From a virus, in the IMG/VR virus record IMGVR_UViG_3300009370_000074, positions 1-37,862 of that record: a DNA stretch of 37,862 nucleotides, one strand, 5' to 3'. Position numbers and translations under genes: made by a program. This document shows, one piece after another, positions 4,111 to 18,794 of this stretch. The notes below the pieces were generated by a model that saw nothing but the letters and a program-made list of their open reading frames with translations, searched no databases and was not told the origin of the DNA. Position 1 is the first letter of the stretch, and every line of letters starts with the position of its first letter.

Positions 4111-4414
4111 ACCGCGCGGTGAACTCCGGACCCTGACTCACAGCCTCGGCCGCCAGCTGATGGACAGGTTCCCATGCGGCAGTTCGAGCGGCTTTATTTC
4201 TCGTGTTGATCCATTCCAGTTGTTCAGCATCGGAACCGAATTCGGTATCTGCCATTTCGTTCCACGAGTCAGCGAGGAGTTGCCGATAGCTGTTTGCAAA
4301 CTCATCGAAGACATCCCCGGACTGCGGGTCGGGAGTGGGGCCTGGACCCGGTTTGCTTTCACCGATTGGCAGAAACAGGACGACAGCACAGAGGATGAGG
4401 ATGACATGTTTCAT
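4070..4414 (-). CDS. secreted or membrane-anchored hypothetical protein, 114 aa
   Basis: I chose the ATG at 4414 because it overlaps the upstream stop (ATGA), although the frame is open to 4462. The protein starts with Met-Lys-His and a hydrophobic segment at residues 4-18, then a Pro/Gly-rich stretch (about 21-31), so it looks like a signal peptide or anchor. The rest is helical and charged. A small exported protein directly after a one-TM protein recalls spanin-type lysis genes, but there is no clear lipobox. This is inference. Confidence 0.6.
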   Translation of the reverse strand: MKHVILILCAVVLFLPIGESKPGPGPTPDPQSGDVFDEFANSYRQLLADSWNEMADTEFGSDAEQLEWINTRNKAARTAAWEPVHQLAAEAVSQGPEFTARFAASLQERTLGID

Positions 4415-4698
4415 ATATCGTCTGCCTTTTTCATGCCTTGCATGGTCCGGCATTCCATCCACTCATTCAGGAGATGGACAGAGGCGGTGCAGTTTCGTTC
4501 TCGGGAGTCGTCCATGAGTTCCCGCCAGGCGACATCCATGTTTGTTCGGTGATCTCGATCTTTGGTGGTTGCCGATTTGAACCAGTTGAGGATTCCACGG
4601 AGGGAGTCACCTTTGGCACCGTACGCTGTGAGGACAGCGACGATAGCGGCGATGGATTTGATCCAAGTGACGGCAGTCTCCGAGAGTTCGAATCCCAT
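4411..4698 (-). CDS. holin-like small membrane protein, 95 aa
   Basis: One hydrophobic segment at about residues 10-28 (WIKSIAAIVAVLTAYGA) is followed by a charged cytoplasmic-type tail with a Cys pair (NC at about 69, EC at about 82). Size and layout resemble small phage holins or pinholins, and it lies beside an exported protein and a protease. The gene overlaps both neighbours: its start touches the stop of the 134-aa gene and its stop overlaps the next start. Holin function is inferred from shape only. Confidence 0.5.
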   Translation of the reverse strand: MGFELSETAVTWIKSIAAIVAVLTAYGAKGDSLRGILNWFKSATTKDRDHRTNMDVAWRELMDDSRERNCTASVHLLNEWMECRTMQGMKKADDI

Positions 4699-5102
4699 CA
4701 GATTTCCCCTTCTGGTTCATCCAGTCCAATGTTGGCACCCGCCTGGGCATACTCGAGCACGACACGCACGATTGGTTCGAAAGCATTATGGATCTGGTTT
4801 GTGATGAACGGGTGAATAAAGGACGGCAGGGGAGCCACGACCAGCCGAGCGATGTTATTCAGCGTGATCTGCAGGATCTTTTCGGTCTCCTGATCAGTAA
4901 GACCATTACTGGCATCCAGCAGGAAGGACCAGGTAAACTTTGGCAATGCCGGCATGACCAGTCCGAGTGCCGAGCGGATTTTGGCGGCTTCCTGCTCTTC
5001 GTCCCAGATGCCAGGGATGTTGATCCTGGCATTAAGGACAGGGACCATGAGATTGATGGTTCGTTCGAGCGTAACGCTGGGCACGGAATTTTCGTCGGGC
5101 AT
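4698..5102 (-). CDS. hypothetical protein, 134 aa
   Basis: I place the start at the ATG at 5102, because GGGGAG lies seven bases upstream. The frame is open further, to 5201, but without such a site. The protein is helical, with hydrophobic stretches such as LVVAPLPSFIHPFI at about residues 85-100. No clear transmembrane helix or family is visible. It is the first gene after the repeat-rich intergenic region, so it likely opens the left-arm transcription unit. Confidence 0.6.
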   Translation of the reverse strand: MPDENSVPSVTLERTINLMVPVLNARINIPGIWDEEQEAAKIRSALGLVMPALPKFTWSFLLDASNGLTDQETEKILQITLNNIARLVVAPLPSFIHPFITNQIHNAFEPIVRVVLEYAQAGANIGLDEPEGEI

Positions 5103-5230
5103 CACGGACTCCCCAAAATCATCAGTGGCATCCGAGGGGCTGATGAACCTCCCTGAACAAGACTCTTCAGGACACCTCTCACTCGTTCCAGAAGTCGTCA
5201 CTGTACCGGTAGGCTGGCGAATTCGTCAAT

Positions 5231-5263
5231 ACCGTGGCTGAACCGTGGCTGAACCGTGGCTAA
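5231..5263. repeat. three tandem 11-bp repeats
   Basis: ACCGTGGCTGA occurs at 5231-5241 and 5242-5252, and a third copy with one change at 5253-5263. The group lies at the edge of the longer repeat-rich region and could be a protein binding array. Confidence 0.7.
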
Positions 5264-5638
5264 GGCGCGAGAAATCGAGAAATCGAATAACTCAAGGGAA
5301 TAACTCAACCCCCCCCCTTTAGAGAGTGAGAAATGGGCAAAAGGGTCGAGAAATGAGATTCTCGGCTGAGGAAAGAGACCCCTTGAATTATTTGAGTTAT
5401 TCATACACATATAGATAATACTATATAAAACACTCGTTTTTCTCGTCCGAATAGTGCAAATTTGCCCTTGAGTTATTCTTGCACTATTTGAGCGATTCCA
5501 GCGGCAGACCTTGAATAATTCAAGAATAACTCAAGGTCAAATTTGAGTTATTCCGCGCGAGAAATGGCGAGAAATGTCGCGAGAAGTTGGGCGCGATGTC
5601 TACTTTCTCGGCAAGAAATCGAGAAATAGCGCGAGAAA
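5264..5638. other. origin-like intergenic region with two repeat families
   Basis: This 375-base gene-free stretch is AT-rich in part (a TATA-rich core near 5405-5430) and carries six exact copies of GAATAACTCAA: 5285-5295, 5298-5308 and 5524-5534 in one orientation, and 5392-5402, 5468-5478 and 5543-5553 in the other. It also has eight exact copies of GAGAAAT (5269, 5277, 5328, 5348, 5559, 5569, 5621 and 5633 as first bases), several preceded by CG. Iterated sites plus an AT-rich core next to the primase-helicase gene suggest a replication origin. A regulatory switch is the alternative. Confidence 0.55.
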
Positions 5639-7792
5639 TCAGATCCTCTCGACCCATTCGGAGGACTTGGTCTTCCCCGGCTCCTTGGTGAGTTTGATCA
5701 TGCCGGCGGCAGCGAGATCATCGACGATCTCTTTCCGCTCACGATATCGCAGGGACTGCGTCTTGCGTCCCAGCTGCGTGAGGGACATCCGGCAGGTGAT
5801 CTTCTCCAGCACCTGTCGCTTGGTACGTTCATACGGCGTATCAGACAGGTTGGAGTCGATGCGGCTGACCAGTTTCCGGGTGCAGAAGTTCTGCAGTCGA
5901 ATGGCCCAGTCAGCATCCTCCAAGGTAACTTCGAACTCTCCTTTGGCCGCAGCGGACAGCATCGCCAGCTTGTTGGCTTTCTCGGCTGATCGGGACCAGA
6001 TGGCAGCGGCAACTGACTCTTCCCCGATCCGGCGATCAGCGATTTCGCGCATGTGCTGAATCAGACGATCCTGCACCGGCTGTCCCCAAATCATTTCGGT
6101 GGGTTCGGGGTGCAGGTCATCGAGGTTCCCTCCAGGGGAATACTCGATCCAGAACCGGACCAGATCCACGAGGTTCGGCGGCGGTTTCCGCCTGGAGATT
6201 CCGATGGGGACATGCTCTGTCAGCGGCACATAATCCGGTGCTTCGAAGATGTGGAGTCTGCCGAGCAGACCGGCATGCACAGACTGCGACGAAAGGGCAT
6301 TCCAAAGCGTCGATGGGGTGCTCGATCCGAGGATAACGCAATGAGGCTGGTCGAGGCATGGCGTGCGTTCTGTGTCCGCGTAGGCTCGCCCCTTCATGGT
6401 CGAGGATGAGGACGTGTAGAGCTTCAGCAGGTCTGCCTCCAGTGCCTTGAGGTAGGGTTGTGCGTTCGTCGCGCTGACCTGCTCGATGAACTTGCCAAAT
6501 TCATCGATCTGGAACAGTGTGGCGGGATGCTCCTGTAGTCTGGCGAACAGTCCGGCGGAGGATCCCAAATCTTCGGGGGCAATCAGATCCCCGGCTCCGC
6601 AGGCATCGAACAGTCGTTTGGTGCATTGGCGACCATGTTCTTTGCCGGACCCGGTCGGACCCATGGCAAGCAGGTAGAGGTTGGTGCGTCCATTGAGCGG
6701 GTCAGCGATTTTGCGACCGGTGATCAGTGACATCAGTGCCAGCGCCGACGCCAGGAAGACTTCGGGCAGACTGTAGAGGCAGATATCATCCTGCCAGCAG
6801 ACGATATCACCGATCATGCCGGGAGCATCAAAGATCAGATCGCGGGGCATCCTCTGGGGGACAGGTTCAGGTTTTTTTGAATTCGTTTTCAGGCCGGAAA
6901 AGTCCACTTCCGGCGGAATCGTCGGCAGAACCTGCTCTCGATTTTCCTTCGGCTCTCGTGGCGTGCCGTTCCGCATACCGGATCGAACTGCCTTCAGAAA
7001 TTCCTCTTCTTCCAGCGGCTCCAGCAGACTGTTGTTCCAGTACCGGCAATACTCCTCAACCTTCTCCGGGGAGACTCCCTCTTCGACGAATCGATGCAGA
7101 TGTCCGGACAGCTTGAACAGGGCATTGTTGCGACCACCGGGAGCCTCCAGCGGGATGCTGTCGACGTAGGCTTCCATCCGGCGGTCCAGTTCCATTTCAT
7201 CCGGCGTGACGACACGGGACGTAGAAACGCGAGAGGCAGGTGCTGTCGATGGTGCGAGACGTTCTGCATCGGAGGAAAGCATAAACTCCGAACAGACCCA
7301 ATCGACAGCCTCCTGCCCCTCTGAGATTTCAGAACAATCCTGCCAGAGACTTGCAGTAATCGTCCAGAACCTCGCGTGATCGTAGACTTCAACCTGCTGT
7401 TTCAGATTTTTGTCGATGACGTGAACGCAGCGAGAGCCTTCCGGTTTTCCCCCGCGCGTGATGAATTTAATCCCGCGACCAGACGGTGAGATCTCACCGT
7501 AACTGCAGGGAGTAAACCTCTCGACGAATGGTCTGGCCCAGTCCAGCAGGTTGCCGTTTTCATCGAGGCAGTTGTCGAGATCGATGCCGCAGTAGGGATC
7601 GTCATCACTGAAGACAAAGGCGATGCCGCTGAACTTGCTGCGAACACGGACAGCGGACTGGTAGGTCGACCAGGTGGAAGGATCATTCGATTTGCCGGGT
7701 GCTCCGGATTTGGTGCAGGGGATTTTGTTGTCATTGATGTTTTTCCAATTCAGCCACTGCGCACACTCGCGCAGGCACTTCGGGGGGATCAT
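5639..7792 (-). CDS. primase-helicase: prim-pol-like N-terminus and DUF3987-like ATPase
   Basis: A 717-residue protein. The N-terminal third resembles archaeo-eukaryotic primases of phages: the acidic motif GIDLDN at 69-74 and SPSGRGIKF at 102-110. The C-terminal half is a P-loop ATPase with Walker A GPTGSGK at 378-384 and Walker B LFQIDE at 426-431, like DUF3987 helicase-type proteins. It should prime and unwind DNA at the phage origin. The repeat-rich region directly follows its 3' end, as is common for phage origins. The start at 7792 is preceded by CGGAG. Confidence 0.8.
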   Translation of the reverse strand: MIPPKCLRECAQWLNWKNINDNKIPCTKSGAPGKSNDPSTWSTYQSAVRVRSKFSGIAFVFSDDDPYCGIDLDNCLDENGNLLDWARPFVERFTPCSYGEISPSGRGIKFITRGGKPEGSRCVHVIDKNLKQQVEVYDHARFWTITASLWQDCSEISEGQEAVDWVCSEFMLSSDAERLAPSTAPASRVSTSRVVTPDEMELDRRMEAYVDSIPLEAPGGRNNALFKLSGHLHRFVEEGVSPEKVEEYCRYWNNSLLEPLEEEEFLKAVRSGMRNGTPREPKENREQVLPTIPPEVDFSGLKTNSKKPEPVPQRMPRDLIFDAPGMIGDIVCWQDDICLYSLPEVFLASALALMSLITGRKIADPLNGRTNLYLLAMGPTGSGKEHGRQCTKRLFDACGAGDLIAPEDLGSSAGLFARLQEHPATLFQIDEFGKFIEQVSATNAQPYLKALEADLLKLYTSSSSTMKGRAYADTERTPCLDQPHCVILGSSTPSTLWNALSSQSVHAGLLGRLHIFEAPDYVPLTEHVPIGISRRKPPPNLVDLVRFWIEYSPGGNLDDLHPEPTEMIWGQPVQDRLIQHMREIADRRIGEESVAAAIWSRSAEKANKLAMLSAAAKGEFEVTLEDADWAIRLQNFCTRKLVSRIDSNLSDTPYERTKRQVLEKITCRMSLTQLGRKTQSLRYRERKEIVDDLAAAGMIKLTKEPGKTKSSEWVERI

Positions 7793-8367: not shown

Positions 8368-8676
8368 TCACAGCAGACCGGGCGTGTATTCATGCTCGGC
8401 CATCCATTCCGCCGCCGTTTTGTTGGTGAACTCGCCACCATCGAGACTGATCGGCAACACGGTTTCTCCGCAGATGCGGTAGATGTCACATTCTACATCA
8501 TCCGGCTCACGATCCTCGCGGCCCATTGTCCGGTCCAAAATCTTGACCGCCTCATTCTCCGAGTCCGCCATCACATGCGACCGGATCAGGCTGTCATCGA
8601 AGCGGAACACTTTCAGACCGTCCGTAGAACAATCGCATGAACCGGAGCACTCATTCTCGCGGCTTGGTGAATTCAT
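8368..8676 (-). CDS. hypothetical protein, 102 aa, start codon inside an attC site
   Basis: I chose the ATG at 8676, with AAGGGAAG just upstream. The frame is open further, to 8763, but that would run through an attC site and into the next gene. The protein starts with a Cys-rich stretch (CSGSCDC, about residues 9-15), then an alpha/beta-like region ending AEWMAEHEYTPG. No family recognised. The first 16 codons and the ribosome site lie within the attC site at 8624-8714, so recombination there would remove or swap the translation start. Confidence 0.6.
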   Translation of the reverse strand: MNSPSRENECSGSCDCSTDGLKVFRFDDSLIRSHVMADSENEAVKILDRTMGREDREPDDVECDIYRICGETVLPISLDGGEFTNKTAAEWMAEHEYTPGLL

Positions 8677-8714
8677 AGTCTTCCCTTCGTGCCCGGTGAT
8701 GCGGGTCGTTATCA
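8624..8714 (+). other. attC: attC recombination site 1 (degenerate left end)
   Basis: The left end is GTAGAAC and the right end GTTATCA. The arms pair as ACCGG 8641-8645 with CCGGT 8693-8697 and GCAC 8647-8650 with GTGC 8689-8692, leaving the unpaired A at 8646 on the left arm. The inner part TAGAACAATCGCATGAACCGG matches the left half of attC 4. The downstream gene's TGA (8712-8714) overlaps the right end. Confidence 0.65.
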
Positions 8715-9671
8715 CGCCTTCGCGGGTTGCCGCCTCGAACATCCAACGCAAGCGGGTTGCCACGTTGGTTCGTCGCCAAAAAGCGTTAACTGTAATTCAT
8801 TTGTGTTCTGTTTCTTCGCTGGTCGCGTTGCCCATTTGCAAGGCAACCCCAGCGACTCACATTTCAACTCAATACCCTGAATGTACACTTTCCGCTTTGG
8901 TTCTAACTTCGCAGCCAAATCCAATTCATGCGGTTCGCCCATTGTCCCACACAAGCAATCACCGCTGATTCCAACGACCGGCTTAACCGGATTACGAGGC
9001 AACCCAAATTCCTGCCGATACAACTCAAACGCCACCGCATCAAACCAATAAAACGGATTAACCCAAACTGTACCGCCAACCTTGCTAACCGCTCGCTTGT
9101 AACCTGCTCGAATCGACGATTCATCACGGCGGATTCCTGTAATCATCATCACCGTCGCGTTGCGACTGTGGCCCTGTTTCGCCTCGCGTCTGATCGCGTT
9201 GAACGATCGCTCCTTCAACCGTTGGTATTGTCGCCCGTGCTGCCCCGGTCCTGGCATCCCGAAGTTGAAGCAGTATTCCTCGTAGGCTGTTTTCCCGTCT
9301 TGCCATCGCCCTGTTGGCAACGATGCCGGATCAAATGGCAGGTCAACCCGTTTTCCGTTGATTCGTTTCCTCGTGCTTTTTGGTGGCCCCAATGCTACCG
9401 CGTGCTTCTCGATCAAGTGCCATCCAAACCGATCAACAATCGCCCCCATGTGTTTCCGGTTGGCTTCCATGCCGGTCAACGTGTTGCAATGTGCAACCGC
9501 TGCCCCAAACTCTGTCACGGCAAAATGTGTTGCAACTATCGAATCGTCACCACCGCTAAACCCGCCGAAGATGGCAACGGGTTTGTATCGCTCGACTGCT
9601 TCAGCCGTAATCTTTCGGCCAGCGTCAATCATTTGCTCGATTCGTTGTTCGGCGTCGTCTGAGAATAGCAC
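8712..9671 (-). CDS. PP-loop ATPase, PAPS reductase/DndC-like, cassette gene
   Basis: 319 residues from a GTG at 9671, four bases after attC 2. The frame is open far upstream, but that would cross the attC site. The PP-loop is FSGGDDS (38-44), and ITGIRRDESSIR (177-188) matches a motif of the PAPS reductase superfamily. C-terminal cysteines (CLC 239-241, CVGC 308-311) could hold an iron-sulfur cluster or zinc. Related enzymes adenylate or transfer sulfur (DndC, PAPS reductase) or modify bases. Substrate unknown. DNA modification is an inference from the neighbouring methyltransferase cassette. Confidence 0.75.
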   Translation of the reverse strand: MLFSDDAEQRIEQMIDAGRKITAEAVERYKPVAIFGGFSGGDDSIVATHFAVTEFGAAVAHCNTLTGMEANRKHMGAIVDRFGWHLIEKHAVALGPPKSTRKRINGKRVDLPFDPASLPTGRWQDGKTAYEEYCFNFGMPGPGQHGRQYQRLKERSFNAIRREAKQGHSRNATVMMITGIRRDESSIRAGYKRAVSKVGGTVWVNPFYWFDAVAFELYRQEFGLPRNPVKPVVGISGDCLCGTMGEPHELDLAAKLEPKRKVYIQGIELKCESLGLPCKWATRPAKKQNTNELQLTLFGDEPTWQPACVGCSRRQPAKA

Positions 9672-9675
9672 GGCG

Positions 9676-9766
9676 GTATAACAATGTGTTGCACGGGAGT
9701 TGCGAATCCCGTCGTTTGGTAATGGTAAGCGTTCACGTCGCAACCCCGTGAACACTGACGTTAGCC
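9676..9766 (+). other. attC: attC recombination site 2
   Basis: Ends GTATAAC and GTTAGCC, 91 bp. Left arm CACGGG, an extra A, then GTTGCGA pairs with right arm TCGCAAC, CCCGTG. It separates the two PP-loop cassettes. There is no T run, so it is not a terminator. Confidence 0.85.
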
Positions 9767-9768
9767 AG

Positions 9769-10542
9769 CTAAACGAAACACGAACCCAGCGTACACTGCT
9801 GGACCGTTGCCGCTGACTCGTCAGTGTCAATGTCCGCCTCACCCAACGGCACCAACGAACGGTGCAGCCACGTTCCGCCTTTGTCGTCCCACTCTCGCAA
9901 CTCAGCGTCCATCTGCTTTGCTGCCTCCCACTGCTCCGGGTAATTGTCCCTGATGTCTCGCCATTCCGCGTTTCGCTTGTGCGGGCACATCCAACACGAC
10001 GAGTGCGGCGCTGGAGGCAATCCGGCATCTTTCACGATCTTCGCACAGCTTGCCGTATTCACCATCAGGTCAACCAGCGGGCAAATTTGCAACCACTTCC
10101 CACATTGCCGTCCGTGGAATGGTTGCCCGTCTTTGTCTTTTCGGTTCCACCGCTTCCGCTCATCGAACGCGAATCCAATCCAATGCTCACCCTCGGTCAC
10201 ACCTGCGGCTCTCAGGTGCCGATCCACAACCCGGCGTTTCCATTCGTTGCTGCAATACGTCTGCAACTTCCCCGTCTTGGTAAACACGGGCAACAACAAA
10301 TCGCCGTTCTTCGCGTAAATGTCCACCGTTGCCAGTTCGTGGCTTGCGATTTCAACCGCCAATCCGTGTTCGTCCAGCATCGGCTGTACGTGCTGCTCAA
10401 GGTACTCCCACGTTGACGGGTTTTCGCGGCTCGTGTCCGCTATCACAATGCGATCTGGTTTCGGTATCACGCCTTTCGCGATCAACACGCACATTGCGAC
10501 TGTCTGGCGACCACCTCCGTAGTTCAATACTGTCTCGCGCAT
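9769..10542 (-). CDS. second, divergent PP-loop (PAPS reductase-like) protein, cassette gene
   Basis: 257 residues from the ATG at 10542, six bases after attC 3. Upstream codons fall in the attC. The N-terminal loop NYGGGRQTVAM (7-17) is a variant PP-loop with GGGRQT where SGGxDS is usual. Cysteines at 97, 147, 154 and CWMC at 183-186 suggest a metal or Fe-S cluster. It resembles phage-encoded PAPS reductase-domain proteins of unknown substrate. It differs clearly from the PP-loop protein in the next cassette, so this is not a simple duplication. No Shine-Dalgarno site is seen. Confidence 0.72.
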   Translation of the reverse strand: MRETVLNYGGGRQTVAMCVLIAKGVIPKPDRIVIADTSRENPSTWEYLEQHVQPMLDEHGLAVEIASHELATVDIYAKNGDLLLPVFTKTGKLQTYCSNEWKRRVVDRHLRAAGVTEGEHWIGFAFDERKRWNRKDKDGQPFHGRQCGKWLQICPLVDLMVNTASCAKIVKDAGLPPAPHSSCWMCPHKRNAEWRDIRDNYPEQWEAAKQMDAELREWDDKGGTWLHRSLVPLGEADIDTDESAATVQQCTLGSCFV

Positions 10543-10548
10543 CGGGCT

Positions 10549-10637
10549 GGCTAACAATTGCGTGAACCGGAGCGGCGAATCCGGTCGAATTTGAAATCAA
10601 AGCGTAACCTCGCCGCCCGGTTACGCAGGGCTTTATC
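10549..10637 (+). other. attC: attC recombination site 3
   Basis: Left end GGCTAAC, 89 bp. The right end reads CTTTATC instead of GTTRRRY, so this site may be damaged. Arms AACCGG-A-GCGGCGA and TCGCCGC-CCGGTT pair, with the usual extra A on the left. The stop codon of the ribbon-helix-helix gene lies in the right end. Confidence 0.8.
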
Positions 10638-10821
10638 TGCTACGTCGTCGCCTCACCTTGATTTCGCGATCAACACCGGATCGGATCAATTCAGTTACGG
10701 CAACGCCCAACTCTTCAGCGGCTGAATTCCACCGCTTCCACGTTTCATCGTCAATCCGCACCGTCCTGATCGGCGTCGGGCCGCCCTGCGATGGCCGGCC
10801 CGGTTTGCGTGTGCTCGGCAT
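10633..10821 (-). CDS. ribbon-helix-helix DNA-binding protein, 62 aa, cassette gene
   Basis: A basic N-terminus is followed by a strand RTVRIDDETW and two helices (about residues 20-55), the MetJ/Arc/CopG ribbon-helix-helix pattern. The tail is very basic (RRRRSR). Such proteins are transcriptional repressors or antitoxins. The ATG at 10821 overlaps the stop of the 102-aa gene upstream (TAATG), so the pair is co-translated. The order (unknown protein first, then RHH protein) would fit a toxin-antitoxin or autoregulated pair, but the partner shows no known toxin fold. Confidence 0.7.
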   Translation of the reverse strand: MPSTRKPGRPSQGGPTPIRTVRIDDETWKRWNSAAEELGVAVTELIRSGVDREIKVRRRRSR

Positions 10822-11129
10822 TACCACTCCATCACGGCAACTACAGTTGCGTTGGCAACATAAATCTCATCCGCAAAGTCCGTCCCTCGACCTGCATTGT
10901 CGCCAATCAGGACAACGATCTTTCCGCAGCCGCGGCTGTATTGGGCGTACTTGACCATTGCTGTCCAGCTTTCAAACGCACAAGTCCCGGGTAGCTCGTC
11001 GTCTGTCTTGTCGTCACCGTCCCAGACAAAGCTGTTTCCCAAATCATCCCCTACAGCAACGTCGTGGTCGATGAAGCGGAAACCGACCACTTCGCCCGCT
11101 TCGATAATGTTCTTGATAAAGTTGGGCAT
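10821..11129 (-). CDS. hypothetical protein, 102 aa, cassette gene
   Basis: ATG at 11129 with GAGGA upstream. It has a hydrophobic beta pattern, acidic in the middle, with a Rossmann-like strand KIVVLIGDNAGRG near residues 70-82. No family recognised. It is coupled to the RHH gene. Unlike the other cassette genes it starts about 115 bases from its attC site, and that gap holds a promoter-like sequence, so this cassette may carry its own expression signals. Confidence 0.65.
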   Translation of the reverse strand: MPNFIKNIIEAGEVVGFRFIDHDVAVGDDLGNSFVWDGDDKTDDELPGTCAFESWTAMVKYAQYSRGCGKIVVLIGDNAGRGTDFADEIYVANATVVAVMEW

Positions 11130-11173
11130 TGTTCATCTTTCCTCGTTTAGGATTGCGTCTGACTCATGCACAC

Positions 11174-11201
11174 ATCTTATCGGCTGATTCGTTTCTGTAA
11201 A
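11174..11201 (-). promoter_or_regulatory. sigma-70-like promoter inside a cassette
   Basis: On the minus strand TTTACA (11201-11196) and TAAGAT (11179-11174) are 16 bases apart, upstream of the 102-aa gene at 11129. The match is good in the -35 box and fair in the -10 box. Confidence 0.45.
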
Positions 11202-11243
11202 TACAAAAAAGGCATGGAATCACAAAGTTCCCCCAGAAAAAGC

Positions 11244-11334
11244 AGATAACAATCGCATGAACCGGAGTGCCCGGCCCGCGGTTTCTGAATTCGGATGCCA
11301 TTCGCGGGCACCCGGTTATGCTCAGTTGTTAGTT
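11244..11334 (+). other. attC: attC recombination site 4
   Basis: Ends AGATAAC and GTTAGTT, 91 bp. Left arm AACCGG-A-GTGCCCG pairs fully with CGGGCAC-CCGGTT on the right, with the extra A on the left arm. This is one of the best-formed sites in the array. Confidence 0.85.
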
Positions 11335-11510
11335 GGTCCAGCGATCTCCCTATTAGCCTGCGACACCTTACCCAGTCACAATCATCGCCCATTCGTTCGT
11401 TCATCGTTTCTATGGATGACTCTCTTCGATATGCGATGTGCTGATTTATTATTAACAATTGAATGGCACTGTAACATTCGTTATGTTACTGTGAAGAAAG
11501 GAAGTTACGA
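11335..11510. promoter_or_regulatory. cassette spacer with 7-bp hairpin before a small plus-strand ORF
   Basis: This gene-free stretch follows attC 4. It is AT-rich toward its right end and holds the inverted repeat GTAACAT (11471-11477) and ATGTTAC (11483-11489) with a five-base loop, then AAAGGAAG just before the ATG at 11511. It could be the leader or operator of the plus-strand ORF. Nothing else is visible. Confidence 0.35.
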
Positions 11511-11621
11511 ATGACTGACGAACCAGAAGAAGAGATTCGAGAGATTCGAAGCCCAAGCGAACGAATTATGAATGCCATTGATCTTCATCCTAAGAACCAT
11601 GACACAGTGATCCCACGTTGA
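11511..11621 (+). CDS. possible 36-aa acidic peptide in sense with attC polarity
   Basis: An ATG with a good AAAGGAAG site upstream opens 36 codons: an acidic start (DEPEEEIREIR), then SPSERIM. The 3' end overlaps the end of the minus-strand gene 11590-12411 by 32 bases. It would be the only array gene in the usual cassette direction, and its ribosome site is better than those of its neighbours. At this length it remains uncertain. Confidence 0.35.
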   Translation: MTDEPEEEIREIRSPSERIMNAIDLHPKNHDTVIPR

Positions 11622-12411
11622 GCATCTTTGCTGCCGCATCGTGGATCTCTGGTGGCACATCGTCTGACGCATTGCAATACGCCAGAATAGCATCCAACGG
11701 ATGCCCCTTGCTGATGTTTCGTGCATGGTCTATCGCCTCTTGAGGATCAACAAACGTGTCACTGTGAATCCAAACCTCGTATCCAATATCAAAGTCAGCC
11801 AGATCGTTGGCGATCTCAGCACGAATCTCGGAGATCGCCTCGGGCGTCAGTTTCTTGCGCGATGCACGTTCGAATTGAAGCGCGAACGCTCGCCCTTCCT
11901 TGACTACCGAACAATTGAAGGAATCACCCGAGTTGATTCCCTGGGATAGCAAATCATCAGCGTCACACGACGCCGTCGCTTCGCGTTTTCTCTCATCGGT
12001 CAACGACAGCCGTGCCACTTTGCCTTCGATACTCAAAACTGTTCCCCCGAAGCGATGCAGCGTTCGCTGTAGCGGCTTGCTGGTTTCCTTCACCTCAGCG
12101 GATGAAATGGCTGCAAACACCTTGAGAGAAGCTGCTGCGTTGATGATCTCAACGCGAATGATCGCGTCAGGGTCTTGTGACTCCCATGTAATGTCACCCG
12201 ACCTTTGTGGCGGTCGCCTTGCTTCCGGTAAATACACCCATGTTTCGTCATCACGGTCGATTCGGCCTATCAGGCTGTCGCTCCAGTAAATGTCAATGGT
12301 GCCCCCAGCGGCAGCAACTATTTGATTCTTATCACCTGCATTCAACACGTCGAGAATGTCTGCAACGTGCCGAAGTTCTTCTGCTGTGTGTTGGTATCGC
12401 GGACCAGGCAT
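11590..12411 (-). CDS. hypothetical protein, 273 aa, cassette gene
   Basis: The ATG at 12411 lies inside the left end of attC 5 and no Shine-Dalgarno site is seen. The N-terminal 30 residues look helical. Residues 35-110 are beta-rich (TIDIYWSDSLIGRIDR and similar), and the C-terminal half has a possible OB-like strand set and a helical end. No catalytic motif or membrane segment. I do not recognise the family. The gene fills the cassette between attC 4 and attC 5. Confidence 0.6.
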   Translation of the reverse strand: MPGPRYQHTAEELRHVADILDVLNAGDKNQIVAAAGGTIDIYWSDSLIGRIDRDDETWVYLPEARRPPQRSGDITWESQDPDAIIRVEIINAAASLKVFAAISSAEVKETSKPLQRTLHRFGGTVLSIEGKVARLSLTDERKREATASCDADDLLSQGINSGDSFNCSVVKEGRAFALQFERASRKKLTPEAISEIRAEIANDLADFDIGYEVWIHSDTFVDPQEAIDHARNISKGHPLDAILAYCNASDDVPPEIHDAAAKMLNVGSLCHGS

Positions 12412-12498
12412 AACAATGTGTTCCACCGGAGCGGCTAATCCGGGTCTGTTCTGAAATCAACGTCCACCGTCGCCGCCCGGTGAATTTAGACGTTATCG
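12408..12498 (+). other. attC: attC recombination site 5
   Basis: Ends GCATAAC and GTTATCG, 91 bp. Arms CACCGG-A-GCGGC and GCCGC-CCGGTG pair, with the extra A on the left. The next gene's start (12411) and the previous gene's stop (12493-12495) both lie in its ends. Confidence 0.85.
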
Positions 12499-12774
12499 GG
12501 AACTGGCTGGCTGTGTATGCTTCCGGTAGATGCGAGCTACTTTGATGTGCTGCTTCTGGCTCAATGGCACCTTGCCGTAGACATCCATCAGGAATTGCTG
12601 CTCCCAATCATTCAACAAATGGATGGTATGATCCTCCAACAGAAATCGAATCTTCTCGTCCGTACTCGTCTTGTGCGTTGCCGCATCAAATGACGGGTTG
12701 TTTGGATCTTCAACGGTGGACACCGTGTCGCCGATGCCCTCGCCATATTCTGAGCCTCCGAGTCGTTTGACCAT
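12493..12774 (-). CDS. hypothetical protein, 93 aa, cassette gene
   Basis: I chose the ATG at 12774, five bases from the end of attC 6, with GGAATC before it. An earlier ATG at 12798 lies within the attC. The C-terminal half (LNDWEQQFLMDVYGKVPLSQKQ) is helical and resembles small phage or host proteins that pair a helical bundle with a Leu-rich stretch, but no family is certain. It occupies the whole cassette between attC 5 and attC 6. Confidence 0.6.
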   Translation of the reverse strand: MVKRLGGSEYGEGIGDTVSTVEDPNNPSFDAATHKTSTDEKIRFLLEDHTIHLLNDWEQQFLMDVYGKVPLSQKQHIKVARIYRKHTQPASSR

Positions 12775-12779
12775 GATTC

Positions 12780-12873
12780 CGATAACCATGCGATGCACAC
12801 CGAGCGGCGATTGGTGTGCGGGTTTCAGTTGGTAAGATCACCCATCGCCGCCGGGTGATCGCGGCCGTTATCC
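12780..12873 (+). other. attC: attC recombination site 6
   Basis: Ends CGATAAC and GTTATCC, 94 bp, slightly longer than the others. Left ACACCG-A-GCGGCGAT pairs mostly with right ATCGCCGC-CGGGTG, with a mismatch in the outer part. The stop of the methyltransferase gene (12868-12870) lies in its right end. Confidence 0.8.
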
Positions 12874-13512
12874 AGCAAACGGCAGCACGCCCTGACGCAG
12901 ACGGTTTGCCGCTATCTCACAATATCGTTCTTCAATCTCGATTCCCACGGCACGACGGCCCAAATCCTTAGCCGCACGCAACGTGGTTCCGCTGCCCATG
13001 AACGGATCAATGATTGTTTTCGGTTCAGGCTTCGCGATCGTGATGCACCATTTCATCAACGCTTCTGGCTTTTGTGTCGGGTGCTGTCGCGGCTGCTTCG
13101 CCACGAACCCGCCGTTCGCACAGTATTCAAACAGCCGCGCCCGTCCTACCATCGAAGTCCACGCATATTCCCACTCGCTGACGTTCTTTTGATTCGGCCT
13201 CAACTTGTCCCAGCATAACGGCTGCTCGCACGGTGGCATGCTGTAAAAGTTCCCGCCCCATATAATCTGTGTTTTCCCAGCAGACAAAATGAGTTTCATC
13301 AACTCTTCTGAAATCAAAACGTCCCACTTGTCCGACCCGCCATGAAGTAGCGAATCGAACGAATGACCTGACCCGCCTTTTGTCAACTTGTCGCCCAGCC
13401 CATACGGCGGATCGGTCAACACCAGATCGAACGACTCCAATTGCGGCAACACCTCACGGCAATCCCCGTGATAGATCGTGATTCCATCCTGTTCGTAATA
13501 GCTGGATAACAA
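12868..13512 (-). CDS. beta-class DNA methyltransferase (N6-adenine or N4-cytosine), cassette gene
   Basis: 214 residues. DPPY at 34-37 is the catalytic motif IV, HPTQKP at 144-149 and FMGSGTT at 171-177 (SAM-binding motif I) follow, and this motif order defines the beta class. It should methylate an amino group in double-stranded DNA, often to block host restriction. The start is probably the TTG at 13512, inside attC 7. No in-frame ATG lies nearby. No partner nuclease is seen in the cassette, so it is an orphan enzyme. Confidence 0.85.
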   Translation of the reverse strand: MLSSYYEQDGITIYHGDCREVLPQLESFDLVLTDPPYGLGDKLTKGGSGHSFDSLLHGGSDKWDVLISEELMKLILSAGKTQIIWGGNFYSMPPCEQPLCWDKLRPNQKNVSEWEYAWTSMVGRARLFEYCANGGFVAKQPRQHPTQKPEALMKWCITIAKPEPKTIIDPFMGSGTTLRAAKDLGRRAVGIEIEERYCEIAANRLRQGVLPFAG

Positions 13513-13594
13513 AAAATTGCACCGGAGCCGCGAATCTGGGCGTGTTCGCGTGGTCGGCTCAACCCTCGCGGCCCGGTGAATTTAGACGTTAGAA
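13504..13594 (+). other. attC: attC recombination site 7 (right edge of array)
   Basis: Ends GGATAAC and GTTAGAA, 91 bp. Arms CACCGG-A-GCCGCGA and TCGCGGC-CCGGTG pair, extra A on the left. To its right, phage-type gene organisation with strong ribosome sites resumes. Confidence 0.85.
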
Positions 13595-13631
13595 ATGGAT
13601 GGTTCAACACGGCTGGTAATTGCTCGTCCAT
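13589..13631 (-). pseudogene. 5' fragment of a phage gene interrupted by the cassette array (possible)
   Basis: An ATG at 13631 follows a canonical GGAGG at seven-base spacing and overlaps the end of the upstream gene. After 14 codons (MDEQLPAVLNHPFL) the frame enters attC 7 and then reads nonsense to 13416. This looks like the start of a phage gene cut by insertion of the array. A very short real gene or a chance frame are alternatives. Confidence 0.35.
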
Positions 13632-13633
13632 CG

Positions 13634-13888
13634 TCATCCCTCCTCTTTTTCTCTCCACGCGATCATGGCAGTCACGGCACCCAGCAGCGCCATCCCATAC
13701 ACCGCTCTTTCAACGCTGACTTCTTCATCCTCCTCCACGAGATGCGGCAGTACATGGTCTGCCAGCATTCCGCAAAACGTATCGACGCCATCTTTCTCGA
13801 TGCTCTCGACCACCGCCTGCAGGTACTGATCGTTTTTATGGACGATCATTCCCCAGAATTGGTCCACTGTGATTTCTCCGTCAGTCAT
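13634..13888 (-). CDS. hypothetical phage protein, 84 aa
   Basis: The start at 13888 is set by GAGGAG six bases upstream. An in-frame extension to 13903 would skip that site. The protein is acidic and helical, with an Ala/Met-rich hydrophobic stretch near the C-terminus (YGMALLGAVTAMIA, about residues 63-76) that could be a membrane helix. The upstream helicase gene ends 11 bases away. No family recognised. Confidence 0.6.
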   Translation of the reverse strand: MTDGEITVDQFWGMIVHKNDQYLQAVVESIEKDGVDTFCGMLADHVLPHLVEEDEEVSVERAVYGMALLGAVTAMIAWREKEEG

Positions 13889-13899
13889 TCTCGCACTCC

Positions 13900-15603
13900 T
13901 CAAAACGGGACATAGTCATCACTCCATCCTGCCCCTTCCGGAATCATTTCCGGTGGTTGCAGGTCCACGATTTCCGGGCACTCATCCTTGAATTCAATTG
14001 CTTCCACTCGTCTCCACTTGCCTTCTTTTTTTGTCGTGATCTGATACGGCGCACGGATGGCATGTCGTCGAATCATATCCAGCGACTCATCGACGGTGTC
14101 CGGCATCGGATGCTGTGACCGACTGTACCACCATGTTGCCGCCTTCTTCTTCGCGAACCCCTTGTGCTCGAAGCAGATCCACTCCCGGCAGACCTGCATT
14201 GAGAGGTTGCCTTCCGCGCCCGTTTCACGGACGTGGTACGTCACCCTCATCGTGGGAGGCGCTGTATCATCGGCACCGCGCTTGATGTGTTTGTCATAGT
14301 CAACCGCCTCCACCTCCCAGGTGATATAGCTCTCTAGCATTTCCAGATCGGCTTCCGCTTCGTGATTTGCTTCACGGCGAGTCTTGTCTTCCGGTTCGAA
14401 ATGACAGTGAGGACAGATTCGCATGTCCGGCGGGATGTCACCTTCACAATTCACGCAGAGTCGTCCTCGCGTGTTTGCTGCCGGGACCGCAGGTCCATCG
14501 GAATCTCGATCTTCGACCATGTAGCCGAAGTCATCACGGTCGGGATCCCCATGCCTCTTACGGTTGCCTCCGAAGTCCAGCAGCAGGCAGTCCTGTTTGC
14601 CTTCGTGGATCCGGAATCCACGACCGACCATCTGCACAAACAACCCCGGTGACATCGTGCTCCGCAGGACGCAGACGGCATCGATGCCGGGAGAATCGAA
14701 TCCAGTGGTGAGGACGTCACAGTTGACCATGTACCGCAGTTCTCCCGTGCCGAATCGATGCAGCATGGAAGACCGCTCCAGTGATCCTGTGTCGCCTGTC
14801 ACGCAGCCGACCTCTTCTCCGGTCAGCTCTTCCATGACCTCCTGCACATGGTAACTGTGCTTTACGCCGCAGCAGAAGATCAGCACCGACCTGCGGTCGG
14901 CAGTGAGTTTGGCGACTTCTTCACAGGCAGCTTCGACGACTCCATCTTCGTTGAAGGCACGCTCCATTTGACCGGCAATGAACTCTCCTCCTCGCACTCC
15001 CACCCGTTTGATGTCCACAGTGGACGTGGGAGTTCGAGTCAGGGGAGACAGGTATCCAGCTTCGGTGAGGGCAGAGACTCGTGCCTCATAACTGATTTTC
15101 GTGAACGTGCGATCCGGTCCGGCGATTGGACCTTCTCCAGTGCGGTACGGTGTCGCCGTAAGCCCGACGATCCGTGCCTCCGGGTAGGCAGCCAGCAGTT
15201 GCTGATACATCGTCTGCGACTGCACGTCATTGCTGATCAGGTGCGCCTCATCGACGATGATCAGGTTCCTGACTCCCATCTTCGCCGGATCACGAAAGAT
15301 GGACTGGATCCCGGCAGCGATCAGCCGATGGTCGGTGTCTCGCGACTTGAGACCGGCAGAATAGTAGCCGACTTCTTCTTCAGCCAGAGCAGAGATCTTC
15401 TCTGCGTTCTGCTGCAGGAGTTCTTTGCGGTGCGCGACCACGAGCACGCGACCGTCCAGTTCGGTCGCACGTTGGCAGAGCATGGCAATCACCCACGACT
15501 TCCCAGCTCCGGTTGGCAGGACAACAAGTGGCCTGCCGGAGGTCCGCATCAGATAGTCCCACGTTTCTTCGACTGCTTCGGTTTGGTAGGTTCGAGGTTG
15601 CAT
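13900..15603 (-). CDS. superfamily 2 DEAH-box helicase with zinc finger
   Basis: 567 residues. Motif I LPTGAGKS at 29-36, motif II DEAH at 118-121, motif III TATPYR at 149-154, and motif VI QMVGRGFR near residue 330 define an SF2 helicase like phage UvsW or type I restriction-type translocases. A CxxC...CPHC zinc site lies near residues 380-395. It likely unwinds branched DNA during replication or recombination. The ATG at 15603 sits just after the zinc-ribbon gene, and the whole block (nuclease, ATPase, DUF669, helicase) forms a recombination module. Confidence 0.85.
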   Translation of the reverse strand: MQPRTYQTEAVEETWDYLMRTSGRPLVVLPTGAGKSWVIAMLCQRATELDGRVLVVAHRKELLQQNAEKISALAEEEVGYYSAGLKSRDTDHRLIAAGIQSIFRDPAKMGVRNLIIVDEAHLISNDVQSQTMYQQLLAAYPEARIVGLTATPYRTGEGPIAGPDRTFTKISYEARVSALTEAGYLSPLTRTPTSTVDIKRVGVRGGEFIAGQMERAFNEDGVVEAACEEVAKLTADRRSVLIFCCGVKHSYHVQEVMEELTGEEVGCVTGDTGSLERSSMLHRFGTGELRYMVNCDVLTTGFDSPGIDAVCVLRSTMSPGLFVQMVGRGFRIHEGKQDCLLLDFGGNRKRHGDPDRDDFGYMVEDRDSDGPAVPAANTRGRLCVNCEGDIPPDMRICPHCHFEPEDKTRREANHEAEADLEMLESYITWEVEAVDYDKHIKRGADDTAPPTMRVTYHVRETGAEGNLSMQVCREWICFEHKGFAKKKAATWWYSRSQHPMPDTVDESLDMIRRHAIRAPYQITTKKEGKWRRVEAIEFKDECPEIVDLQPPEMIPEGAGWSDDYVPF

Positions 15604-15606
15604 CGT

Positions 15607-15864
15607 TTACCATTCTCCTGCGTTGAATTGTCCACCGTGATATCCAATCGCGGTTTCATATGTTGAGCGTCCTGCGGACTTGCCTGGACTGCCAGTTGGC
15701 TGACAGTCCAGGCAAATGTTCATCACCGCAGCGTCAACGACCCGAATCGGTTCGCCGCATTTGGGGCAGTAGTCCCGTTTTAGATCCGATCCCTCAATCT
15801 TCGAACCGGGATGCCCCCAGACGTCAAAGGCAAACTTTCCATAATCCTTGGGGAAGTCTTCCAT
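15607..15864 (-). CDS. zinc-ribbon protein, 85 aa
   Basis: Two Cys pairs, CPKC at residues 33-36 and CLDC at about 51-54, form a zinc ribbon, followed by a Gly/Ser-rich tail. Small zinc-ribbon proteins of phages bind nucleic acid or support replication proteins, but the target here is unknown. The gene lies between the 101-aa gene and the helicase. A hairpin-forming inverted repeat lies inside its coding sequence and covers the codons just after the second Cys pair. Confidence 0.65.
   Translation of the reverse strand: MEDFPKDYGKFAFDVWGHPGSKIEGSDLKRDYCPKCGEPIRVVDAAVMNICLDCQPTGSPGKSAGRSTYETAIGYHGGQFNAGEW
15680..15715. repeat. 12-bp perfect inverted repeat within the zinc-ribbon gene
   Basis: TTGCCTGGACTG at 15680-15691 and its reverse complement at 15704-15715 are separated by 12 bases. 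No T run follows on either strand. It could form a stable mRNA hairpin or be a protein site. Confidence 0.75.
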
Positions 15865-15875
15865 TGATGTTCACC

Positions 15876-16181
15876 TCATCCCATGTGCCAGGTGACGCGC
15901 ACGGTCTCAAAAAAGTTGTCTCCAGCTGGGGTCACCTGGCACTGCAGGATGTAATCCCGAAGGACCGTGGTGTCGATTGCCTCGAAGGCTTCAGGGGAAA
16001 GGTAAAACGTCGCAGTCGCATCAAAGTCATCTTCGGCATATTCGAGTTCACCTGTGATTTCGCACCCAAACCGAACACTAAGGCAGGCACCAAGGACAAT
16101 CACGGCTTTATGATGCGCATTTGTCCAGCCCATGAGGGTGGAGGTTTGTTCCGGAGTCATCATTTCGTTTGGTTCGCACAT
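15876..16181 (-). CDS. hypothetical phage protein, 101 aa
   Basis: An alpha/beta-like protein. The N-terminus starts Met-Cys-Glu-Pro, an AVIVLGACLSV stretch lies near residues 26-36, and the acidic middle (ELEYAEDDFD) is followed by strand-rich sequence. No family recognised. Part of the recombination and replication run, with the zinc-ribbon gene 12 bases downstream. Confidence 0.6.
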   Translation of the reverse strand: MCEPNEMMTPEQTSTLMGWTNAHHKAVIVLGACLSVRFGCEITGELEYAEDDFDATATFYLSPEAFEAIDTTVLRDYILQCQVTPAGDNFFETVRVTWHMG

Positions 16182-16218
16182 CGTTTATCCTCTTTCGTTG
16201 TTGAACGGCGATTGGGTT

Positions 16219-16251
16219 GTCGTGCCGGACAGAAAGCCCATCCGGCACGAC
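16219..16251. terminator. 11-bp hairpin between genes
   Basis: GTCGTGCCGGA at 16219-16229 and its reverse complement at 16241-16251 enclose an 11-base loop, between the genes ending at 16265 and starting at 16181. There is no T run, so it may be an mRNA-stabilising or Rho-type element rather than an intrinsic terminator. Confidence 0.5.
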
Positions 16252-16264
16252 TTAACGACAGGTC

Positions 16265-16705
16265 TCACACTTTTGGAGAACTGACTGGTTCCGCCACAGT
16301 TTCTTCACTGATGATCTGGGATTCAATAATCTCCAGCATCCGTGCAGACGCTACAGCTTCTTCAGTACGACCATGAGCATGCGACAGCCTGATAGCAGAC
16401 TTCAACTCACCTCGTACTCGTTTCAGTCGGCGCAGAGCAATGATGCCGATGTCACTACTCTCAAGTGTGCTGACCGTCTTCCATTGTTTTCCTACAGTTT
16501 CAATCAGTTCTTCTGATCGAAGATAGGAAACCGCGTTGCTGACTTCCGTTCCGAGAAACGACTTGATCAGCAACTCATAACCAACCTGGTGACCGAAATG
16601 TTGTCCGGCCAGGGTCATCAGCGATTCGATGCTGCCATCGCCAGTGCTGACAGACTGGAGAACTCCATCTCGGAAGTTCTTTCGAACACGACGCATTGAC
16701 GCCAT
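16265..16705 (-). CDS. hypothetical protein, 146 aa, possibly winged-helix
   Basis: Basic N-terminus (RRVRKNFRDG), then helices with an HTH-like spacing (SNAVSYLRSEELIETVGKQW at about residues 55-74, with a possible wing after it), and a long C-terminal helix. This could be a DNA-binding protein, but the match is weak. It follows the 249-aa HTH gene by one base (16705/16707), so the two are co-transcribed. Confidence 0.55.
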   Translation of the reverse strand: MASMRRVRKNFRDGVLQSVSTGDGSIESLMTLAGQHFGHQVGYELLIKSFLGTEVSNAVSYLRSEELIETVGKQWKTVSTLESSDIGIIALRRLKRVRGELKSAIRLSHAHGRTEEAVASARMLEIIESQIISEETVAEPVSSPKV

Positions 16706-16706
16706 G

Positions 16707-17456
16707 TCATTCTCCTGTGAAGGTTGGGTGAAATGCCTGCAGTCGCTCCATTTGCTCCTGCCAGGCTTTGTCGGCCAACGCGACCTTCTCGCACGTTGAC
16801 TTCGCGCGAAGACTGTTCATCTTCGCGTTGTCCAAAAACTTCGCTGCTGACTTTACGCGAGCCATGTGCATTTCCAGATCGATTGCGAATGAACTTCGCT
16901 GCTCATCCGGAAACAGAATCTGGTTGAGCTTCTCGTTCTGTTTGGTGACGGACTCTTTGATCACGCCAGCTTCAATCGCTGCTTCCGCTGCCCACTCTGC
17001 CTTCGCAAGCCGAGTCGCTGCCGCTGGTTCGTGATTTAGGTCAATGTAATGTTGGAGGTATGGCTCAAAGGCTTCGGCATCATCGCCTTCAATGTTGGCA
17101 ACCCTGGACTTGTCGCGACCTTCATATCGCACCGTAACAGACGGTGCAAATTCAGACACTACCCGGTTAACCGCTGGTCGCAATTTGGCGCTGCTCCCGA
17201 CTTCGCTTGAATCTGGTGCCACCCATGACCCGACACGTGTCGGGTCATCCGTTGCTGCAGCGACTCCGGCAAAATCCAGTTGTTGATTTACCCATTTGAG
17301 AGTAAACCCTAAACGGTCAGCAACCTCTTCCATCTTGCGGCAGATGCAATACCGAGCGACTGCTTGTGCAATCTCCATTCGGTGTCGTTTTTGCAGCCTG
17401 GACCAATCCTTCTCGATTTCTTCCCATGTCATTTTTCTCATCTCAAAACCTTTCAT
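16707..17456 (-). CDS. HTH protein, ParB-like DNA-binding segment, 249 aa
   Basis: Residues 25-60 hold a helix-turn-helix candidate (VARYCICRKMEEVADRLGFT, then LKWVNQQLD) of the type seen in ParB/KorB-like proteins. The C-terminal half is helical and charged. The coding sequence contains a 24-bp perfect palindrome at residues 70-77. The ATG at 17456 is the longest form; an internal ATG at 17441 has AAAGG upstream and is also possible. A terminator lies upstream, so this gene may start its own transcript. Confidence 0.55.
   Translation of the reverse strand: MKGFEMRKMTWEEIEKDWSRLQKRHRMEIAQAVARYCICRKMEEVADRLGFTLKWVNQQLDFAGVAAATDDPTRVGSWVAPDSSEVGSSAKLRPAVNRVVSEFAPSVTVRYEGRDKSRVANIEGDDAEAFEPYLQHYIDLNHEPAAATRLAKAEWAAEAAIEAGVIKESVTKQNEKLNQILFPDEQRSSFAIDLEMHMARVKSAAKFLDNAKMNSLRAKSTCEKVALADKAWQEQMERLQAFHPTFTGE
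17225..17248. promoter_or_regulatory. 24-bp perfect palindrome inside the HTH gene
   Basis: ATGACCCGACAC is followed directly by its reverse complement, centred on CACGTG, the same core as in chromosomal parS sites, although the flanks differ. Such length without a spacer suggests a symmetric protein-binding site. Confidence 0.7.
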
Positions 17457-17470
17457 ACCTGCTCAAAGTC

Positions 17471-17508
17471 AAAAAAACGCCCCCTGCCCACTGCCGGGCA
17501 GGGAGCGG
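17471..17508 (-). terminator. Rho-independent terminator after the DUF669 gene
   Basis: On the minus strand a GC-rich stem (CCCTGCCC against GGGCAGGG) with a short loop is followed by seven T. It follows the DUF669 gene (stop at 17556) and precedes the HTH gene start (17456). Confidence 0.85.
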
Positions 17509-17555
17509 CATTTGACCGCTGGACACAACGGTCAGGCAATCCGTGCCGATGCTTC

Positions 17556-18002
17556 CTACCAGGGTGTCTCACTCGTGTCGGCAGGGGGATTCACAATCCC
17601 CTCTGCGGCAGAACGATATCCCTTCATATCGTTGGTCAGCCCACCGGTGTCCTTACGCTTACTGATTGCCACAGTCGCGATCAGCGGCTTGTTGTGGAGT
17701 TCGGAGGTGTCGTTCGGACGTGGCACGGAGACAGCCAGACAGAGATCGGCAAACTGTGATTTGCCGATTGCCTGCGCTTTCTCACTCGTATGCTGGAAGG
17801 TCAACTGGTCCCACAGTTTCCGATTCTGGTGCGGACCGTCCAGCACCTTGAATTCCAGCCAGATGTAGGATCCGGTTCCCGCGCGGTTGTTGCGGAGTTC
17901 CGAATCCATGATGGCGACTTTGTAGTCCCCGGCGGGGATCGGTTCGAAGTTCGAATCAACGTGTTCGACTTTTTCGGCGTCGAAGCCGGACAGATTACCC
18001 AT
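17556..18002 (-). CDS. DUF669-type phage protein, single-strand DNA-binding role
   Basis: The ATG at 18002 overlaps the end of the ATPase gene by eight bases. A longer frame to 18200 has no support. 148 residues match the DUF669 pattern: an N-terminal segment GNLSGFDAEKVE, the core PAGDYKVAIMDSE, then YIWLEFKVLDGP. DUF669 genes sit beside Sak4-type recombinases in phages and are thought to act as single-strand binding or annealing partners. Here the neighbour is exactly such an ATPase, so the two likely form one recombination pair. Confidence 0.75.
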   Translation of the reverse strand: MGNLSGFDAEKVEHVDSNFEPIPAGDYKVAIMDSELRNNRAGTGSYIWLEFKVLDGPHQNRKLWDQLTFQHTSEKAQAIGKSQFADLCLAVSVPRPNDTSELHNKPLIATVAISKRKDTGGLTNDMKGYRSAAEGIVNPPADTSETPW

Positions 18003-18780
18003 TGCTCTTTGGTCCTTTCTTTGGTTTTGCGGTCGTGGTTTGGCGTGCATCAAGCGCCTGCTGATATACCTCCCAGTCACAGGCGATTTCAGGTGGGAGA
18101 GAAAGGCGTGATTTGGCAAGCACGCCGGGAGATTCCTGCGTTCGGATGTACCGTTCGCTCTCACCGAAGGCGATGGTGCGTTCTTTGTTGAACCCCACAT
18201 CCTCGGTCTTCGTATACACCCGGTAGTTCAGGTGCAGGACTTCGTCGCACCACTCCTGCCACAGGAGGGAAGCCAGATGGTGCAACGCTGGCTGGTAGCG
18301 GTCGTACGAGTCCCCGCCAGGCGGGTCGTAGCGTTTGACGTCGGCGTGGCAGAGTGCGATCACGCCGCAGTTGCGTACGCGCATCACATACTCCAGACCC
18401 TTGATCGCCTTTTCCCACTTCGCCAGTGCCTGCTTGTATCCACCGCCGAACGGGACGTCAGCGATAGATTCGTGGCTGTCACCGCAGACCTCATCGTGGA
18501 TCAGTTTCTCCATCCAGTCGAGCGTGTCGATGACCAGCCAGTCGAGCACCTTAGGTTCCGATCCGTCTTTGGCTGCCAGTGCCATCAGGATCGTGTTCAG
18601 TTCATGGATCGCGGTGATGCGCTCCGTGCTCACGCAGTCAATGTCGTTCAGCCCATCCTCAAAATTCAGGATGACATGATTTGGTGCTTTCGAGGCGAAG
18701 GTCGATTTCCCAGATCCGTGAGGACCGTAGAGCATGATCCGCCGTGGCGCGATCTTCTTTCCTTTGTTCAGCTTCAGCAT
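17995..18780 (-). CDS. Sak4-like RecA-fold ATPase (AAA_24)
   Basis: 261 residues with Walker A GPHGSGKS at 19-26, Walker B WLVIDTLDW at 81-89, and downstream segments (HLASLLWQEWCDEV) typical of the phage AAA_24 family. Sak4 proteins are short RecA-like ssDNA annealing or strand-exchange factors that work with a DUF669 protein. The DUF669 gene directly downstream and the RecU-like nuclease upstream support this role in replication-coupled recombination. The ATG at 18780 lies 15 bases from the nuclease stop. Confidence 0.75.
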   Translation of the reverse strand: MLKLNKGKKIAPRRIMLYGPHGSGKSTFASKAPNHVILNFEDGLNDIDCVSTERITAIHELNTILMALAAKDGSEPKVLDWLVIDTLDWMEKLIHDEVCGDSHESIADVPFGGGYKQALAKWEKAIKGLEYVMRVRNCGVIALCHADVKRYDPPGGDSYDRYQPALHHLASLLWQEWCDEVLHLNYRVYTKTEDVGFNKERTIAFGESERYIRTQESPGVLAKSRLSLPPEIACDWEVYQQALDARQTTTAKPKKGPKSNG

Positions 18781-18794
18781 TTGAGTTTCCTTGT

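Follow-up and report, generated by a model that had tools for sequence, protein, structure and literature searches.

Can a tailed phage carry a cassette array of the integron type, and if so, how would its cassettes be gained and read? Integrons are bacterial platforms for gene capture, resistance genes included. The window analysed here, which comprises all 37,862 bases of IMG/VR virus record IMGVR_UViG_3300009370_000074, holds an array of attC-type sites at 8627-13591 within a tailed-phage contig: terminase, portal, capsid/head and tail (tape measure) genes all lie on the same contig. A first-pass annotation had described a CALIN flanked by phage genes and lacking an integron integrase. The flanks are as described, with primase, helicase, terminase, portal and tape measure genes around the array, and no TIGR02249 match was found anywhere in the record. 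With seven sites in 5 kb, attC models over threshold, phage flanks and no integrase, the array is indeed a CALIN (a cluster of two or more attC sites that lacks an associated integrase) and not a complete integron (intI plus attI). A separate IMG/VR contig, L001, is identical to window 11587-20855 (100% over 9.3 kb), so a one-off chimera does not account for the right-hand join of array and phage. L001 ends at window 11587, within a cassette; cassette polymorphism could break assembly at that point.

To identify the sites we used two covariance models and a structural scan. Model R1 was built on five window sites with two others (8627 and 12783) held out, and it recovered the held-out pair at about E 1e-10. 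Model R2 was built on 38 bacterial sites from IntI-bearing loci and included none from the window: it matched 7/7 window sites on the + strand (E about 2e-19 to 2e-14), had no match on the - strand of the window, and also matched the class 1 attCs of aadA1 and dfrA12. This is a covariance-model check of the kind that the first-pass annotation had proposed. Compensatory changes were seen at 16 of the 18 pairs of the R2 fold, in an alignment of the 38 sites that had itself been fitted to the structure. The structural scan, independent of the covariance models, asks for [CT]AAC...GTT[AG], three stems and two extrahelical bases. It found four of the seven sites on the + strand (the three weaker ones fell below the cut-off) but nothing on the - strand or in shuffled sequence. 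The positive controls, three known class 1 attCs carried on a plasmid, were all recovered. Bottom-strand folding gave z -3.2 to -4.5 for 5/7 sites. At E<=1, Rfam had no family that matched the window. Since R1, the structural scan and R2 agree, the seven sites are attC by all tests applied, as first annotated.

Their finer structure differs in part from the first description, in which all seven sites had TAAC...GTTA ends and one extra base at the same place. Both ends are kept in five sites, while s1 has GAAC and s3 has CTTTA; on folding, most sites showed not one extra base but two, spaced about 6 bp apart and both extrahelical. The folds, the +-only scan and the covariation agree on an imperfect pairing of L'' with L' whose extrahelical bases lie on a single strand and mark the bottom strand as the one that would recombine, and the R''/R' boxes follow YYAAC and GTTRRRY with a G^TT crossover, the full RRRY only loosely. 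As the extrahelical base sits on the L'' side, the + strand is the attC top strand. Having lost the crossover G, s3 is probably dead as an R' site. The array looks partly decayed at s1 and s3, and because these two are degenerate the window copy may be inactive.

Table 1. Features of the array and its phage flanks (positions in the window).
Feature	Position	Strand	Details
Primase/helicase, left phage flank	5639..7792	-	phrog_3022 E 1.4e-80
First (leftmost) cassette gene, no family match	8368..8676	-	ORF to 8763, start codon uncertain; coding score 48
attC s1	8627..8711	+	R'' degenerate (GAAC), R' GTTA; R1 held-out match; R2 E 1.6e-14
Inverted gene, PAPS-reductase-like	8712..9671	-	phrog_424 E 9.7e-12; coding score 83 vs -4 on opposite strand
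attC s2	9679..9763	+	R2 E 4e-19; two extrahelical bases in fold; structural scan score 18
Inverted gene, PAPS-reductase-like	9769..10557	-	phrog_424 E 1.1e-31; coding score 84 vs -15 on opposite strand
attC s3	10552..10635	+	R' crossover G lost (CTTTA for GTTA); R2 E 4.4e-17
Inverted gene, Arc-like repressor, two-gene cassette	10633..10827	-	phrog_6506 E 5.9e-7
Second inverted gene of two-gene cassette, function unassigned	10821..11129	-	phrog_18666 E 1.5e-9; coding score 67
attC s4	11247..11331	+	R2 E 2.1e-14; structural scan
Inverted gene, 273-278 aa, no family match	11590..12411	-	coding score 108 vs 15 on opposite strand
attC s5	12411..12495	+	R2 E 4.9e-16; structural scan
Inverted gene, about 94-101 aa	12493..12774	-	coding score 38 vs 12 on opposite strand
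attC s6	12783..12870	+	R1 held-out match; R2 E 8.9e-17
Inverted gene, N6/N4 DNA methyltransferase	12868..13512	-	phrog_67 E 2e-51; Pfam PF01555 E 1.7e-26
attC s7	13507..13591	+	R2 E 2e-19; structural scan score 18
DNA helicase, right phage flank, reads towards array	13900..15603	-	phrog_16 E 1.6e-91

The first-pass annotation had also taken the gene units to be typical of integron cassettes, and here it failed. All cassette genes of the window lie on the - strand, opposite to their attC, an arrangement that is systematic in related phage arrays. By hexamer coding score 6/6 intervals are inverted, and none follows the canonical form, in which the gene lies on the attC strand and ends beside its own R''. 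Homology fixes the orientation of five genes: the two PAPS-reductase-like genes, the Arc-like repressor, the phrog_18666 protein and the N6/N4 DNA methyltransferase. Several reading frames run into the attC boxes (Table 1). Three genes take their stop TAA from the opposite strand of an R' region: the Arc-like repressor from TTA in that of s3, the gene at 12493..12774 from TTA in that of s5, and the methyltransferase from that of s6. The longest start of the second PAPS-reductase-like gene is a TTG within R'' of s3, and a possible TTG start of the methyltransferase lies within s7 R''. The two adjacent cassettes in 8712-10557 each hold a PAPS-reductase-like gene of one PHROG family. At 11334-11590 an AT-rich stretch of ~250 bp inside a cassette has promoter-like matches and no convincing gene.

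The orientation was then surveyed across the fetched IMG/VR and bacterial loci by applying the hexamer coding score to every interval that separates two successive sites. In a viral sample that was gathered with patterns and a model from window-like sites, and in which several contigs are related, the viral arrays and the window together gave 93 inverted versus 3 canonical cassettes, against 10 inverted versus 59 canonical in the bacterial arrays (Fisher p about 3e-30; intervals of unclear orientation, 26 viral and 20 bacterial, were left out of the counts). Counted by contig, the ratio of inverted to canonical was 33:2 for the viral arrays plus window and 1:15 for the bacterial ones (p about 6e-10). 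IMG/VR virus assignments were checked by hallmark genes for a subset. The viral cassettes are also short, with a median gap of 294 bp versus 552 bp in bacterial arrays, and 39 of 86 viral inverted genes use as their stop a TAA that is read from the R' GTTA on the opposite strand, so that no room is left between gene and cassette edge. In 15 of 18 viral arrays the cassette genes point the same way as the phage gene next to them on the upstream side; on the downstream flank the agreement is weaker (16 of 24).

Eight of the ten bacterial inverted cassettes belong to two IntI-bearing arrays. In L075 (G005:C740, 1-4595; a planctomycete MAG) an integron integrase adjoins the array and 6/6 called intervals are inverted; one cassette protein is of a phage family with relatives in Salinibacter and Paenibacillus phages. 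In L505 (G269:C120, 137-5751) the cassettes close to intI are small and inverted and those further out canonical, a pattern that reads as if phage-type cassettes had recently been added. Conversely, the cassettes of phages TJE1 and Rctr41k are in canonical orientation, and the reversed form is therefore a mark of a phage group and not of phages generally. In the Rctr41k record (L529; KX853513, Virus Rctr41k; 4680-5678 and 8418-9431) a gene labelled xerD encodes an integron integrase (TIGR02249, 383 bits), followed on the same strand by three attC-like sites with canonical genes.

Among the first 25 viral records tested, none had an IntI over the cut-off. Another 25 entries (two overlapped with the first 25) yielded one: G335 (IMGVR_UViG_3300007517_000002; L525/L526), a 39,783-bp record with a terminase (phrog_15, E 2.8e-44) and a head protein. 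Its IntI scores 282 bits with TIGR02249 (cut-off 265) and adjoins an array of eight strong sites whose cassettes are inverted (2604-7696). By its predicted genes and sites, G335 carries a complete phage-borne integron. The G335 and L075 integrases share 37% identity, and a search of IMG/VR for a close relative found none. In an IntI tree the phage protein stands on a long branch; four rows of that tree (L488, L492, L493 and L501) are seemingly in the wrong translation frame.

An exact-pattern search of bacterial genomes returned mostly Planctomycetota, with a few cyanobacteria and one Acidobacteriota, and 8 of the 14 matched genomes held a full IntI. Sites of the R1 type stand in Planctomycetota in tandem arrays adjoining full-length intI; the array at G048:C8, for one, has about 30. 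The window attC sites resemble those of Planctomycetota.

Where might cassettes enter an array of this kind? Seven phage contigs have in common an attI-like edge, ATAATTCAAAG^TTA, at the outer edge of the first cassette. Left of ATAATTCAAAG at least three types of flank can be told apart, and the right sides of the contigs differ. Compared by eye, this edge resembles the AAACAAAG^TT core of attI1. No attI-like motif was recognised at the left edge of the window's own array, in agreement with the first-pass annotation. Matches to the 15-mer GATAATTCAAAGTTA in IMG/VR were mostly unrelated; among 100 re-scanned loci, only one further contig (L379) had adjacent attC sites. A terminator of leftward transcription lies just outside the attI-like edge in three related phages, and outside those three no general leftward terminator was found beyond the edge. 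In L106 and L169, whose flanks are 97% identical, the first cassette joins the phage at different places (CGCCGTG^TTATG in L169), which may be alternative entry points.

Direct comparison of phage arrays points to movement of cassettes. One 379-bp cassette is 99.2% identical in contigs L029 and L189, which come from different metagenomes, and its neighbours differ on both sides. The identity starts and stops at the G^TTA crossover, and the adjoining attC outside the cassette is largely dissimilar. A second cassette is common to L010 and L189 at 95%, and phages G019 and G038 have structural genes that are 85-96% identical and different arrays. As far as sequence comparison goes, these cases show that single cassettes have moved in related phages with breakpoints at the R' crossover; shared cassettes with differing neighbours are the trace expected from site-specific cassette exchange. 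A blastn search of phage isolates with a consensus attC gave no match.

We favour, at roughly 80%, a reading in which the window carries a phage CALIN platform with Planctomycetota-like attC sites, inverted genes, IntI acting in trans, attI-like entry and phage-driven reading. The array sits among the leftward-transcribed replication genes of the tailed phage, with helicase on one side and primase on the other. For the window and most phages, IntI would come in trans, from the host or from a co-infecting phage that encodes it, such as G335, and would cut the folded attC bottom strand at G^TT; new cassettes would be taken in downstream, where such arrays have their attI-like edge. Phage transcription would come in at the opposite end and run towards the attI-like edge, reading only cassettes that are reversed relative to attC; we propose that reversed cassettes dominate because only reversed genes get read and kept. 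As payload the array carries phage accessory genes such as DNA methyltransferases, and methyltransferase cassettes could help to evade host restriction. For a wider claim the odds seem to us about even, namely that there is a phage reverse-polarity integron network of inverted cassettes and of attI-like entries placed where a phage transcription unit ends downstream, with integrases from a few members (such as G335) or from hosts, whose cassettes can also enter host integrons (L075, L505).

The array might instead be an inert fossil, that is, a piece of host integron that illegitimate recombination brought in a single time, that has been decaying since and that exchanges no cassettes on the phage. 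The window without IntI or attI and the damaged R boxes of s1 and s3 are what such a fossil would look like, and illegitimate recombination is a source suggested for phage CALINs by Qi et al. (PMC9892861). A host segment, however, would carry canonical cassettes, and the window and related viral arrays are inverted. TAAC and GTTA are moreover both intact in 5/7 window sites, and the 95-99% identical cassettes of related phages, with their different neighbours and crossover breaks, need continuing exchange, which leaves the fossil unlikely. Exchange need not depend on IntI if phage homologous or annealing recombination joins similar attC repeats, and a Sak4-like annealing protein is encoded at 17995-18780 of the window and in several other array-bearing contigs. 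Such recombination would scatter breakpoints over the conserved attC arms, but they lie at the R' crossover, neighbouring attC sites are largely dissimilar and the attI-like edge shows the same G^TTA junction; we rate this route somewhat below the fossil.

Another possibility is that the sites now serve mainly as RNA elements, operon hairpins affecting termination, processing or translation, with their cassette likeness being ancestral. Each inverted gene is immediately preceded by a hairpin, many genes have their start or stop codon within an attC box, and the phage-transcribed strand folds slightly better as RNA (mean -33.4 versus -31.6 kcal/mol). Yet the crossover boxes and extrahelical bases have been kept, features that matter to IntI and not to an RNA hairpin, and the cassettes move with breaks at G^TTA, so that we consider this improbable. 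The least credible alternative by far is that the contig is a chimera of host integron and phage. Some related contigs (L001, L016) do end in or near the array, where assemblies often fail, but L001 also backs the right join, such arrays occur on many independent viral contigs, and their inverted orientation is unlike that of host arrays.

If the phage-platform reading is correct and related phages run matching reversed-cassette platforms with attI-like entries and now and then an integrase of their own, they would have a means of modular, site-specific swapping of accessory genes such as methyltransferases, and there would be a route for cassettes between phages and host integrons. Reversed polarity would then provide a simple signature separating phage-type from host-type cassettes, one that makes the place of origin of new cassettes directly testable.

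Phage CALINs have already been published by Qi et al. 2023 (PMC9892861), who list TJE1, P12002L, PH101 and MW202573, report recombination of phage attC sites by IntI1 and note DNA methyltransferase cassettes. The arrays described here are alike in being integrase-less attC arrays in phage genomes with methyltransferase cassettes. They differ in orientation: same-direction arrays are given there as typical for TJE1 and PH101, and we too saw a canonical site in TJE1. In MW202573, a reported CALIN carrier, neither the structural scan nor R2 found a site. The available text of that paper describes no inverted cassettes, attI-like edges or phage-phage cassette transfer, and in the open-licence literature we found no report of inverted cassettes, integrase-less phage attI-like sites or phage-phage cassette transfer. 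The phage CALIN itself is thus not a new category; the systematic gene inversion is the part for which we found no report.

Among bacterial systems, the chromosomal integrons of Planctomycetota (e.g. G048:C8) have the same attC architecture and are matched by the same covariance models, but they possess intI, their genes are mostly attC-directed (59 of 69 called) and their gaps are longer (see above). Class 1 cassettes (aadA1, dfrA12 and others) share the R''/L''/L'/R' layout and the two extrahelical bases on the same side, and differ in their canonical gene orientation and otherwise different attC sequence. Integrons with inverted intI, of the Spirochaetota type (PMC8352920, PMC9668308), likewise depart from the standard direction of integron parts: there the reversal concerns the integrase gene, in the phage arrays the orientation of each cassette gene to its own attC.
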